A stretch of 30,634 nt of DNA from Planctomycetota bacterium. GTDB taxonomy: Bacteria; Planctomycetota; MHYJ01; JACQXL01; JACQZI01. Shown here in pieces: positions 3,691 through 29,995 of the stretch; positions within the stretch are counted from its first letter, which is position 1, and the number at the start of each line of letters is the position of its first letter. The DNA lies in contig JACQZI010000031.1 in the NCBI GenBank assembly GCA_016207825.1, forward strand, positions 1 to 30,634, read 5' to 3'. The notes below the pieces were generated by a model. The model saw only the letters and a program-made list of their open reading frames with translations, did not search any database and was not told the DNA's origin. The translations under genes and the position numbers were made by a program.

Positions 3691-4305
3691 TTATTTCCAT
3701 GAAGAGGGGCGATTCAATGTAAGAGAATTATCGACTTTTATAACGTCATCAAACTGACAGGTTGCTAAATGCTTTGTTTTTATCTTCATGTGAAAATCAG
3801 CCACCTGTTTTAATTCCTCGGCTCTTCTGCCGATTGGTATAACAACTCCGATTCTTTTTGCCGGGAATTTTTTCTTAATACTCGCTATTGCGGGAATTAA
3901 ATCACTATCACCGGAAATTATTAGTGCCGTATCCCATGTATCATCTATTGCTGTTTGGAAAAGATTTATCGCAATATTTACATCCGTTCTCTTTTCTCTA
4001 AAAGTATTATAAGATTTATGGCAAACCGGACAGGTTAAATCTATATATCGAAATACGCCTAAAATCGGTTTTACATTAACAAATTGCAATGCTTTTACAT
4101 AAGTTTGATGCCTGTTTAACTTATCTTTATTCCAAGTTGAATAAGCGGTGAAATAATAGATCTCAATGATTTCGGTGTTTTTGGGATTTATGAAACAAGC
4201 GGCTAATTTTGCAAGATTTAACCATTTATATTTATAAAAAAATGGGCGAGCGTTTAAAGAATGGTAAAGATTAAATCCATCAATAAAAACGGTGACTCTA
4301 TTCAT
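3691..4305 (-). CDS. NYN-domain (PIN-like, DUF88/LabA-type) ribonuclease candidate
   Basis: 204-aa protein with a single NYN domain, the PIN-like fold of LabA/DUF88, Limkain-b1 and MARF1 relatives, which are generally considered metal-dependent RNases. The acidic residues expected at the active site are all visible: D9 in FIDGFNLYHS, D108 in KRTDVNIA, and D133/D135 in SGDSDLIP. A CPVC pair at C92/C95 sits in an insertion before the D108 helix and might bind metal, but only two cysteines are present. The gene is clearly more AT-rich than its mfd and mur neighbours and stands alone, which suggests acquisition. There is no Shine-Dalgarno sequence before the ATG. Instead the start lies 15 nt after the U-tract of a two-hairpin leader, so expression may depend on read-through. 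Substrate is unknown; a defence or toxin role is possible but unproven. Confidence 0.85.
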   Translation of the reverse strand: MNRVTVFIDGFNLYHSLNARPFFYKYKWLNLAKLAACFINPKNTEIIEIYYFTAYSTWNKDKLNRHQTYVKALQFVNVKPILGVFRYIDLTCPVCHKSYNTFREKRTDVNIAINLFQTAIDDTWDTALIISGDSDLIPAIASIKKKFPAKRIGVVIPIGRRAEELKQVADFHMKIKTKHLATCQFDDVIKVDNSLTLNRPSSWK

Positions 4306-4319
4306 TTTGATATCTAATC

Positions 4320-4351
4320 AAAAAAAAACCCGAACCCACAAGGAGTTCGGG
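4320..4351 (-). terminator. Intrinsic terminator ahead of the NYN gene
   Basis: A 7-bp GC-containing stem CCCGAAC/GTTCGGG with a 9-nt loop is followed directly by nine T residues on the minus strand. It lies between a minus-strand promoter and the NYN start codon, so it acts as a leader terminator and does not end any upstream protein gene. Confidence 0.65.
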
Positions 4352-4387
4352 GCCAACAAGATATTACATCTTATTGGGATGATCGTT
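4320..4387 (-). ncRNA. Short two-hairpin leader RNA or small RNA upstream of the NYN gene
   Basis: Read on the minus strand, a predicted start near 4387 is followed by hairpin 1 (arms 4353-4362 and 4368-4377, 10 bp, 5-nt loop) and then hairpin 2 (arms 4329-4335 and 4345-4351, CCCGAAC/GTTCGGG, 9-nt loop). Nine U residues follow (4320-4328). In hairpin 1 the only imperfect pair is G-U in the minus-strand RNA but would be a C-A mismatch in the plus-strand RNA, so the minus strand is the better folder. The layout fits either a free RNA of about 68 nt or an attenuator controlling the downstream NYN gene. I match it to no known riboswitch family. Confidence 0.5.
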
Positions 4388-4393
4388 AGCCAT

Positions 4394-4422
4394 ATATTAA
4401 TACAAGGGGTTTCCTAAGTCAA
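4394..4422 (-). promoter_or_regulatory. Sigma70-type promoter for the NYN leader RNA
   Basis: Minus strand: TTGACT (-35, 4417-4422), 17-bp spacer, TAATAT (-10, 4394-4399). Spacing is ideal and both boxes match consensus at most positions. Initiation would fall near 4387, just before the first leader hairpin. Confidence 0.55.
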
Positions 4423-4630
4423 GCTTTTAGCGTTTTTTACTCTTGTTATTTTATCGGATATTTCCCCTGCTTTCTACACTAATACTATAACTTTTAAACG
4501 GCAGATTGTCAACGGAAATTTTTACCGCGCCAGACAAGCTTTTGGAATTGGCAAAAAATATACTTCCGTAAAAAACAATTGGAAAAATTGTCCGGCGGTT
4601 GAAAAATCAATGTTTTCCTCATGTATCCCA
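4423..4630. other. AT-rich spacer, no gene
   Basis: No open reading frame with recognisable protein character. It contains one AAATTGTCCGG copy (4585-4595) related to the palindromic sites near 3504-3537. Otherwise I see nothing. Confidence 0.4.
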
Positions 4631-4916
4631 CCGCAGTTGCTCCACAGCCGCCCCTGAGTCGCTCTTGGTATCTTCCGGATACGCTCTATAGCCCTTCCGG
4701 AATACGCCCATATATCTGCCGGAATGCGTTCCTGTCCTTACCTGAATGCCTCTATGTACTTACCGGAATGTATTCCCACTCCATCCGGAATAGCTGCACA
4801 ATCTTAAGGGAATAGTGCCGGACTATTACCGCCTCATATACGGAATATTAAAGGAGCACGGCCTGATACTCACCGGAGCATCTCTATAGCCGCTCCTCCA
4901 CATGCCCGGTACCGTA
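4631..4916. repeat. Degenerate tandem array, 13 units of exactly 22 bp
   Basis: Cut from 4631 in 22-bp steps, the sequence gives units starting at 4631, 4653, 4675, 4697, 4719, 4741, 4763, 4785, 4807, 4829, 4851, 4873 and 4895 with no insertion or deletion. Nine begin CCGG or CCTG, and the central ones share CCGGAAT followed by R-C, a variable pyrimidine-rich middle and a C-T-T/A end. Units 4697 to 4806 are best conserved and the ends decay. A further C-rich unit may extend to 4938. The phase is constant although the sequence drifts. Twenty-two base pairs is about two helical turns, the spacing typical of iterons and other cooperative protein-binding arrays. It is not a CRISPR, as there is no invariant repeat with unique spacers. 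The 64-codon frame across it looks spurious. Confidence 0.8.
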
Positions 4917-4961
4917 CCCCCTCCCCCCCGGTATCATTTTTAAGGGGAAATTCGTAATATA

Positions 4962-4989
4962 TTGACTTTTGATATATGAATCCTATTAT
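4962..4989 (+). promoter_or_regulatory. Promoter candidate between the 22-bp array and the HTH gene
   Basis: TTGACT (4962-4967), 16-bp spacer, TATTAT (4984-4989); an overlapping TATAAT at 4987-4992 gives a 19-bp spacer. It points towards the HTH gene at 5141 and starts 45 bp after the array ends, so array-bound protein could influence it. Confidence 0.4.
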
Positions 4990-5140: not shown

Positions 5141-5650
5141 ATGAGCCCTAAACGAGTAATAATAGTCCTTCCTCCTTCGGAATATACCAGGTTAAAGGAT
5201 TATATGATTAACCTCAGCATACAGGGAAAATGGAAAGAACGGCGGCGGGCAGAAGCGGTTATTAAGGCAAGCGACGGATTTTCCGTCCCGCAAATCGCCG
5301 AAATAACAAAATCGAATAAACGCTCGATTTACCGCTGGATGAAAAACTATCAGGACAAAGGCATATACGGATTATACCGGGCGATTTATCATATCAAATT
5401 AACCGACGTGCAGGTGGAAGAACTGCTGAAAACAAGCAACTGGGCCGCGGTGAAAAACCGCAAGACTCTTAAAAAATTCCGCGATCGGTGGACTTTCCGC
5501 GAGATGTCCGAATGGGTAAAAAATAAATGGGGTATCAAGATTTCTCCGGAAGCGGTAAGGAAGATGACCTACCGCCAGTTAAAACCGTGGCTTCCCACCC
5601 CGCGCAAAAGAGCTGAAATTGATACAAAACCGCCGCTGGAAAAGAAGTAA
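5141..5650 (+). CDS. Stand-alone transposase-type HTH protein (IS630-like N-terminal half)
   Basis: 169-aa basic protein. Residues about 25-75 (KWKERRRAEAVIKAS, then PQIAEITKSNKRSIYRWM) form the HTH seen at the N-terminus of IS630/Tc1-type transposases. It is followed by a second winged-HTH-like segment around 105-150 (TFREMSEWVKNKWG, then ISPEAVRKM). In such transposases a DDE catalytic domain should start just after the proline-rich linker near 150. Here the frame ends in TAA at 5648-5650, and I find no DDE-type continuation in the next 70 bp. It therefore encodes only DNA-binding domains: either a truncated remnant or a domesticated regulator. It lies directly downstream of the 22-bp array and a promoter candidate. 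There is no recognisable Shine-Dalgarno sequence. Confidence 0.7.
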   Translation: MSPKRVIIVLPPSEYTRLKDYMINLSIQGKWKERRRAEAVIKASDGFSVPQIAEITKSNKRSIYRWMKNYQDKGIYGLYRAIYHIKLTDVQVEELLKTSNWAAVKNRKTLKKFRDRWTFREMSEWVKNKWGIKISPEAVRKMTYRQLKPWLPTPRKRAEIDTKPPLEKK

Positions 5651-5719
5651 GCCACAGAAGAACACTGAAGCACACAGAAAAGCACAGAAAACCGCGGATT
5701 GAACAGATTTAGCGGATTA
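5651..5719. repeat. Dispersed CACAGAA-type intergenic repeat
   Basis: Purine-rich stretch made of repeated CACAGAA, CACTGAA, CACACAGAAAA and GCACAGAAAA words ending ACCGCGGATTGAACAG. From memory it resembles a dispersed intergenic sequence common in several environmental phyla. It separates the HTH gene from the lipoprotein gene without a clear terminator. A related word set recurs at 6738-6764. Confidence 0.45.
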
Positions 5720-8115: not shown

Positions 8116-8132
8116 AAAAGAAGTTAGTTGTT

Positions 8133-8197
8133 AGTGGTTAGTTGTTAGTTGATAGTTGTTAGAATATTATAAATCTGATTACTGACCACTAACCACT
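8133..8197. repeat. TTAGTTG-type dispersed repeat with 10-bp inverted ends, containing the ftsW stop codon
   Basis: The murG-ftsW spacer consists of repeated TTAGT and GTTAG words, with perfect 10-bp arms AGTGGTTAGT (8133-8142) and ACTAACCACT (8188-8197). The ftsW stop codon (8189-8191) lies inside the right arm. On the minus strand the arms could form a stem between the two genes. Confidence 0.6.
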
Positions 8198-29557: not shown

Positions 29558-29689
29558 TTAAACCTGAGATACCTGCACATCCAGCCAGAGCCGTTTTGAC
29601 GCATCAAGGATGAAATCCACGTAACTCGCTCCGCCCGGAGTAAAGCGATTTAGTTTTATACCCTCGTTTATTAATTCCAAGCAGGCTAA
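29558..29689 (-). pseudogene. 43-codon orphan C-terminal-like protein fragment
   Basis: A minus-strand frame between stops reads with protein-like composition: LINEGIKLNRF, FTPGGASYVDFILDASK and RLWLDVQVSQV, then TAA at 29558-29560. It has no ATG and is preceded at once by an in-frame stop, so it is probably the remaining C-terminus of a larger gene. I do not recognise the family. Its stop lies 11 nt from the structured element, which could be its original 3' UTR. Confidence 0.35.
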
Positions 29690-29782
29690 TTATCCGAAGT
29701 ATTTACTGCGGAAAGAATCATATCAATCTGAATCCTATAAACTTTGGAACGGCTAAAGACTTCGCACCCTCCCAGACAGATG

Positions 29783-29995
29783 AAAACACCCCCCTCTACC
29801 CATCCCCACTATACCCCCAGGGGTATCTCTCTCCGGGGTATCCCGAGCGCGAAAAGGGAGTATATCGAAATTCTATTTAAGGGGAACAAAAATAGTTATG
29901 CCCTCCTTACAGGGTATCACCACCCCCTCTACCCACCTCCCCTATACCCCCCTCCTGACCCCTATCCGGACCGGTCAAAGCACTTGGAATAGGGG
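29783..29995. repeat. C-rich tract with ATACCCC palindromes and an imperfect direct repeat
   Basis: A perfect palindrome ATACCCC-CA-GGGGTAT lies at 29811-29826, another GGGGTAT at 29835-29841, and further CTATACCCC, GGGTAT and ATAGGGG words occur to 29995. Two blocks starting about 29788 and 29920 share CCCCCTCTACCCA, then CCCCTATACCCCC with small differences, giving an imperfect direct repeat of about 35 bp. The 82-codon plus-strand frame across it is proline-rich low complexity and looks spurious. Confidence 0.5.

Follow-up and report, generated by a model that had tools for sequence, protein, structure and literature searches.

A constant 22-bp step in tandem arrays that adjoin a family of HTH genes in one clade of Planctomycetota

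Why does a row of short direct repeats keep its spacing while its sequence drifts, and what has the neighbouring gene to do with it? The question is raised by a stretch of 30,634 nucleotides from a Planctomycetota bacterium (contig JACQZI010000031.1, analysed whole and called the window here), in which a series of degenerate 22-bp units precedes a gene for a small HTH protein. Bacterial tandem-repeat loci usually vary in unit length. One exact step, found in dozens of mostly unrelated arrays, calls for a mechanism.

The array and its surroundings

The locus is made up of the following features:
4631–4916, plus strand: array of 13 tandem 22-bp units with consensus CCGGAATAnnnTCCnnAnnCTTA, defined by lag-22 identity and a profile chain; the well-formed part is 4653–4916 and weak units reach out to 4610–4939
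4908–4935, plus strand: G/C-rich imperfect palindrome GGTACCGTACCCCCTCCCCCCCGGTATC at the gene-proximal end of the array, by direct reading
4962–4989, plus strand: candidate sigma-70 promoter TTGACT-16-TATTAT (10/12 matches), reading into the HTH gene
5141–5650, plus strand: gene encoding a bipartite HTH protein of 169 aa, one of a multicopy family, by Pfam, NCBIfam and an AlphaFold model

Autocorrelation bears out the constant phase that a sequence-only reading of the window had described. Identity at lag 22 is 0.511 over 4631–4916, compared with 0.255±0.027 in dinucleotide-preserving shuffles, and not one of the 5,000 shuffles attained 0.511, whether at this lag or at any other between 8 and 60. 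Identity is raised at lags 44 and 66 as well, and hence the phase of the array is constant. A profile chain takes in 15 units between 4610 and 4939, each at a step of 22 bp, and the 12 well-fitting units at 4653–4916 agree best in columns 1–7 (C10, C10, G9, G10, A10, A7 and T7 of 12). The outer units are degenerate and the first (4631) is weak, again as described earlier. Tandem Repeats Finder does not detect the array because its units are too diverged. Nothing else in its own genome clearly matches the repeat. A CRISPR array consists of near-identical repeats with unrelated spacers of constant length; this array, in contrast, is a continuous run of 22-bp repeats that drift along its length, with no division into constant repeat and spacer. 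Coding repeats were rejected, since 22 is not divisible by three and the signal at lag 66 does not exceed that at lag 22. An 11-bp sub-period (0.35 at lag 11) is seen in the window array taken by itself; as a general property it was rejected, the average over the array set being 0.247 at lag 11.

The promoter candidate lies where the earlier reading had put it, beginning 45 bp past the end of the array and pointing into the HTH gene, which starts at 5141. Promoter-like sites are in slight excess in this region (5 versus 2.7±2.0 expected from shuffles), and the leader that runs from promoter to gene has no more predicted structure than its shuffles (z 0.63). At 4321–4400 Rfam gives an isrL match, which was rejected for a score far under the cut-off. 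The context is chromosomal, with mfd and mur genes. On the minus strand, window 4305–4512 carries a strong promoter-like site (TTGACA-17-TATAGT, 11/12 matches) and a terminator-like hairpin of the intrinsic type (4351–4329), directly before the start of an NYN-domain gene (3691–4305); from its sequence, the arrangement looks like an attenuated leader. A GTTAGTT heptamer array of 5.7 copies (8123–8162) lies between MurG-like and FtsW-like genes.

One step in many arrays

The array is no isolated feature; it is one of dozens in its genome (G000; 2.89 Mb in 42 contigs), most with unrelated repeats. A first search of this genome used CCKGAAT-like motifs, two or three of them at intervals, and brought up further 22-bp arrays of different sequence. 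All loci fetched for such matches held a 22-bp array except L037, which gave a measured lag of 21 and, by eye, no more than a short series of 22-bp steps. We also took a motif-unbiased sample, 400 kb from two large contigs chosen regardless of content, in which 8 of 12 non-coding periodic stretches had a period of 22 bp or its double; a more sensitive rule gave 11 arrays. Extrapolation from these 400 kb puts the total at ~60–80 arrays per genome. Six arrays with a 22-bp step were found in 140 kb of G003, a genome of the same order and another family. Mean identity over 54 distinct arrays is 0.561, 0.540 and 0.517 at lags 22, 44 and 66, with every other lag within 5–69 at 0.24–0.27.

The arrays share a step, not a sequence. 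Pairwise similarity of the repeats averages 0.310, compared with 0.289 after permutation, and a consensus common to all arrays was rejected, as most pairs are no closer than permuted ones. Some repeat types recur at two to three loci, where the flanks are also in common. GGGGTA..TACCCC-like elements terminate most other arrays, their place and character recurring while the sequence varies, as read directly and without statistics.

Spacing was measured with a profile chain that allowed steps of 18–26 bp. Across 44 arrays the step is exactly 22 bp in 608 of 612 cases, alongside 4,132 departures from consensus, and all four exceptions fall at array ends; the exact count depends on the penalty, very weak penalties letting the chain take chance steps, and intact phase is favoured because the arrays had been picked out by their lag. 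With broader margins and 68 arrays the count was 841 of 862. These counts support selection on the spacing of the arrays while their sequence drifts, as the earlier reading had supposed; random indels between units are nearly absent. Conserved columns are contiguous within the unit (z 6.8), which is not what uniform drift would give, and no second conserved block lies half a unit away. Two arrays counted as non-coding (L046:3976–4552 and L182:1546–1910) have a 21-bp step and units like ATACCTTTCGCTTTGGTATAA; the 22-bp ruler is therefore not quite universal.

One narrow clade has the arrays, the HTH family and also FAM2, another multicopy family. Of the 392 genomes in a phylum sample, 5 carry the HTH family at E 1e-10, all from one order. 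The other five sampled genomes with matches have IS630-type proteins, several of them of transposase length, without adjoining 22-bp arrays. FAM2 occurs in 3 of 199 genomes, a sample that omits some genomes with FAM2 matches. No 22-bp arrays were found in 144 kb, in short contigs, of two same-order genomes that lack the genes (G004 and G002), nor in 199 kb of three outgroup genomes, 342 kb being sampled altogether. One further Planctomycetota MAG relative (L030) had neither an array nor a profile match, and searches of IMG/VR viral contigs returned no HTH relatives.

The HTH family and its link to the arrays

The protein encoded next to the window array matches Pfam HTH_23 and HTH_32. It also matches the IS630 transposase model NF033545 (E 8.5e-15; 55 bits, cut-off 100) over positions 1–120 of 299. 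The catalytic DDE domain is absent, the open reading frame stopping at 169 aa and the alignment at position 120. Judged from these matches, the protein is an IS630-type transposase reduced to its N-terminal half, with paired-type DNA binding; it resembles IS630/Tc1-mariner enzymes in this region, whereas the catalytic half is missing from all full-length copies of the family (~143–169 aa). Its AlphaFold model (pLDDT 85) has two helical lobes, and the best structural matches include the Pax5 and Pax6 paired domains, CAST TnsB, Mos1 and SETMAR, at scores (Foldseek E≥0.04, VIA Z≤6.3) that give support at the level of the fold only. The top PDB match by sequence profile is 2lvs, a CRISPR repeat binding protein (E 0.0011).

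The gene is not the orphan it had seemed, since its own genome contains at least a dozen relatives. Family matches number 15 in G000, 11 in G003, 9 in G007, 2 in G005 and 1 in G001, and many of the copies are decayed; G004 has one weak match (E 8.8e-4), a transposase-like open reading frame. Gene and array co-occur, as predicted from the window. In G000, G003 and G007 an array ends 170–500 bp upstream of 12 of the 13 full-length HTH copies, one of the counted copies having an in-frame stop; the exception is C17, where no array was detected. This compares with 4–6% at random (3.7% of sampled positions in G000 and 6.1% in G003 are equally near an array), so linkage is ~15–25 fold above background. 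Among the short single-HTH copies, 8 of 14 have an array no more than 600 bp away, upstream or downstream, with none detected for the other 6.

Gene and array also vary together. HTH proteins more than 70% identical have their repeat type in common, and below 50% identity the arrays are no closer than permuted ones, save for one pair (L091/L106) whose arrays match at 0.90 though the proteins are 40% identical. Divergence of the HTH proteins is associated with that of the arrays among full-length copies (Mantel p 0.004). Common descent of adjoining genes and arrays would likewise lead related HTHs to share repeat types. The array type of the L097 HTH gene is also found at two loci without an HTH gene (correlation 0.97 and 0.91), and that of L079 at one (0.75); such arrays are possible targets in trans.

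For many arrays there is no HTH gene in the vicinity. Two arrays lie upstream of AAA_14/DUF4143-like ATPase genes (L029, to which the Pfam run applies, and L036), and the same array polarity and G/C-rich end are found ahead of different genes, HTH, ATPase and FAM2. G006 has FAM2 and one array with no HTH match; the arrays are therefore not strictly dependent on the HTH family, and a factor other than the HTH protein may bind them. FAM2 is a family of proteins of ~265 aa, with 51 matches in G000. Two of its members serve as examples:
L056:3354–4151, minus strand: FAM2 member, with ~50 paralogues over G000, G003, G007, G001, G005 and G006
29561–29671 of the window, minus strand: C-terminal FAM2 fragment of ~36 aa (profile match, E 2.5e-6)

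The fragment lies near degenerate C-rich repeats (29780–29980). FAM2 matched no Pfam family. Its AlphaFold model is very confident (pLDDT 95.6), yet Foldseek finds nothing like it in PDB or BFVD, the best VIA score being Z 5.4; the predicted fold may be new, although these searches do not prove it. As a general array partner FAM2 was rejected, with an array ≤600 bp upstream in 5 of 24 sampled copies in G000 and 4 of 15 in G003. Several contigs of the genome terminate within the 3′ part of FAM2.

What the arrays may be for

On balance we favour the view that the array is a tiled platform for cooperative binding of the protein encoded just downstream. The HTH protein would be a domesticated IS630-type DNA-binding domain, with two paired-domain-like HTH lobes and no catalytic domain. 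One molecule would occupy each 22-bp unit, with neighbours head-to-tail and about two helical turns apart, such that some 13 molecules would coat ~290 bp beside the promoter of their own gene and govern how active it is, the simplest modes being autorepression or local silencing. The footprint and register of the protein would hold the step at 22 bp, while unit sequences drift, are homogenised by tandem exchange and come to differ between diverged paralogues. Some repeat types also form arrays without an HTH gene, close to genes such as those for AAA ATPases and FAM2, and these would then be targets in trans. Periodicity, conserved spacing, linkage to the gene, restriction to the clade and the protein family are shown by the data; binding, cooperativity and autoregulation, or any other effect on transcription, are what we infer from them.

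Two known systems offer partial precedents. TnsB of Tn7 and CAST elements binds sites of 22 bp with one bipartite HTH domain per site (PMC9371665). With TnsB also among the structural matches of the HTH model, this is a precedent for a footprint of one protein per 22 bp. TnsB, however, has a catalytic domain and three to four sites per end, whereas here 10–25 units run head-to-tail, catalysis is lacking and there are dozens of arrays, mostly of different sequence; no transposase core is found among the annotated proteins of the window. Cbp1 is a small multi-HTH protein that tiles CRISPR repeats in a chromatin-like manner and controls transcription (PMC10883916). The likeness to Cbp1 and Cbp2, archaeal coaters of CRISPR repeats, lies in the pairing of a small multi-HTH protein with a repeat array, which would be tiled here too. 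In contrast to those systems, the arrays have no spacers, repeats diverge within an array and no cas genes are seen near it. Two observations sit awkwardly with one protein per unit. Half-size, single-HTH paralogues keep the 22-bp period, so that the rule needs dimers there, and the lack of a general 11-bp sub-period or of a second block half a unit away is contrary to the trace that two equal lobes might leave.

The main rival holds that array, G/C-rich palindrome and gene form a non-autonomous mobile cassette, moved now or in the past by a transposase in trans, with the arrays as Tn7-like ends made up of transposase-binding sites and the HTH protein as a leftover or as a regulator of transposition. 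We regard this as unlikely. It would account for the equal polarity and G/C-rich end ahead of three kinds of gene, for repeat types that recur with common flanks, for the TnsB-type fold and 22-bp site size, and for the many decayed HTH copies. However, the catalytic domain is in no full-length family copy, the arrays lie on one side only, and the repeats are mostly unrelated, so that a single transposase could not recognise them all.

Less likely again, the arrays could be neutral minisatellites, produced by replication or repair that duplicates 22 bp, with the HTH genes hitch-hiking. Centres that are homogeneous and edges that are degenerate (unit identity 0.54, 0.79, 0.79, 0.77 and 0.53 by array fifths) are the mark of tandem exchange, and the slow fall of similarity from lag 22 to lag 66 is also as expected of unequal exchange; repeats mostly unrelated between loci fit as well. 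Such an origin is at odds with nearly no indels against thousands of substitutions, with the clustering of conserved positions in the unit, with the enriched linkage to full-length HTH genes and with the absence of arrays from sampled relatives without the gene families.

A function of the repeats as RNA, the array being transcribed as, for example, a type III antitoxin-like array, terminator and gene, is improbable. The order of repeats, hairpin and gene would suit it, as would promoter-like sequences read directly at the distal end of two type A arrays (L032 and L033). Yet the units of 44 arrays fold not clearly better than column-permuted ones (mean z −0.45 and −0.32), and RNA hairpin units as a general property were rejected on this small excess of secondary structure. 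Moreover, no Rfam family matches at the gathering score, the promoter candidate of the window sits past the array, and the linked gene encodes a DNA-binding domain, not a ToxN-type endoribonuclease as in type III toxin–antitoxin systems. Least of all do we expect an iteron origin or centromere, at which the HTH protein would serve replication or partition, for although constant-step direct repeats of ~22 bp adjoining a DNA-binding protein gene recall plasmid iterons, these arrays are chromosomal and ~60–80 per genome, the adjacent protein is an IS630-type HTH and no Rep initiator, neither a Rep domain nor a ParA-type ATPase linked to the array is found in the examined loci (the AAA_14/DUF4143 proteins of two loci being of another type), and nothing that we found supports the segregation or replication control once suggested for the array.

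Dozens of arrays together with HTH genes of apparent transposase descent suggest a hitherto undescribed system in which protein coats arrays of DNA repeats; we found no description of 22-bp arrays tied to such genes in open-licence papers. More tentatively, the tiled platforms could make up a clade-specific, chromatin-like system of dozens of strict 22-bp arrays, each with one domesticated-HTH paralogue and wired to FAM2. The specificities of array and protein would in that case turn over together on a fixed ruler. If the HTH proteins do coat the arrays, they form a natural series of matched protein–operator pairs, useful for studying the joint change of DNA-binding specificity and operator sequence, and a bacterial counterpart of Cbp1 chromatin on CRISPR arrays.

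Two minor observations concern other repeats. Another set of direct repeats of 22 bp, conserved, of TTGACAAAGTGGAAGAAAATGC type and in two to three copies, lies 5′ of some HTH and ATPase genes and may be a common operator:
L036:3389–3552: TTGACAAAGTGGAAGAAAATGC-type repeats
L048:16657–16806: TTGACAAAGTGGAAGAAAATGC-type repeats
L073:2042–2192: TTGACAAAGTGGAAGAAAATGC-type repeats
L050:16012–16159: a related form

Finally, the 16S rRNA of the genome (L080:1501–2982) has in its 3′ third an apparent insertion of CACAGAA-type repeats, real or an assembly artefact, that resembles window 5649–5691.
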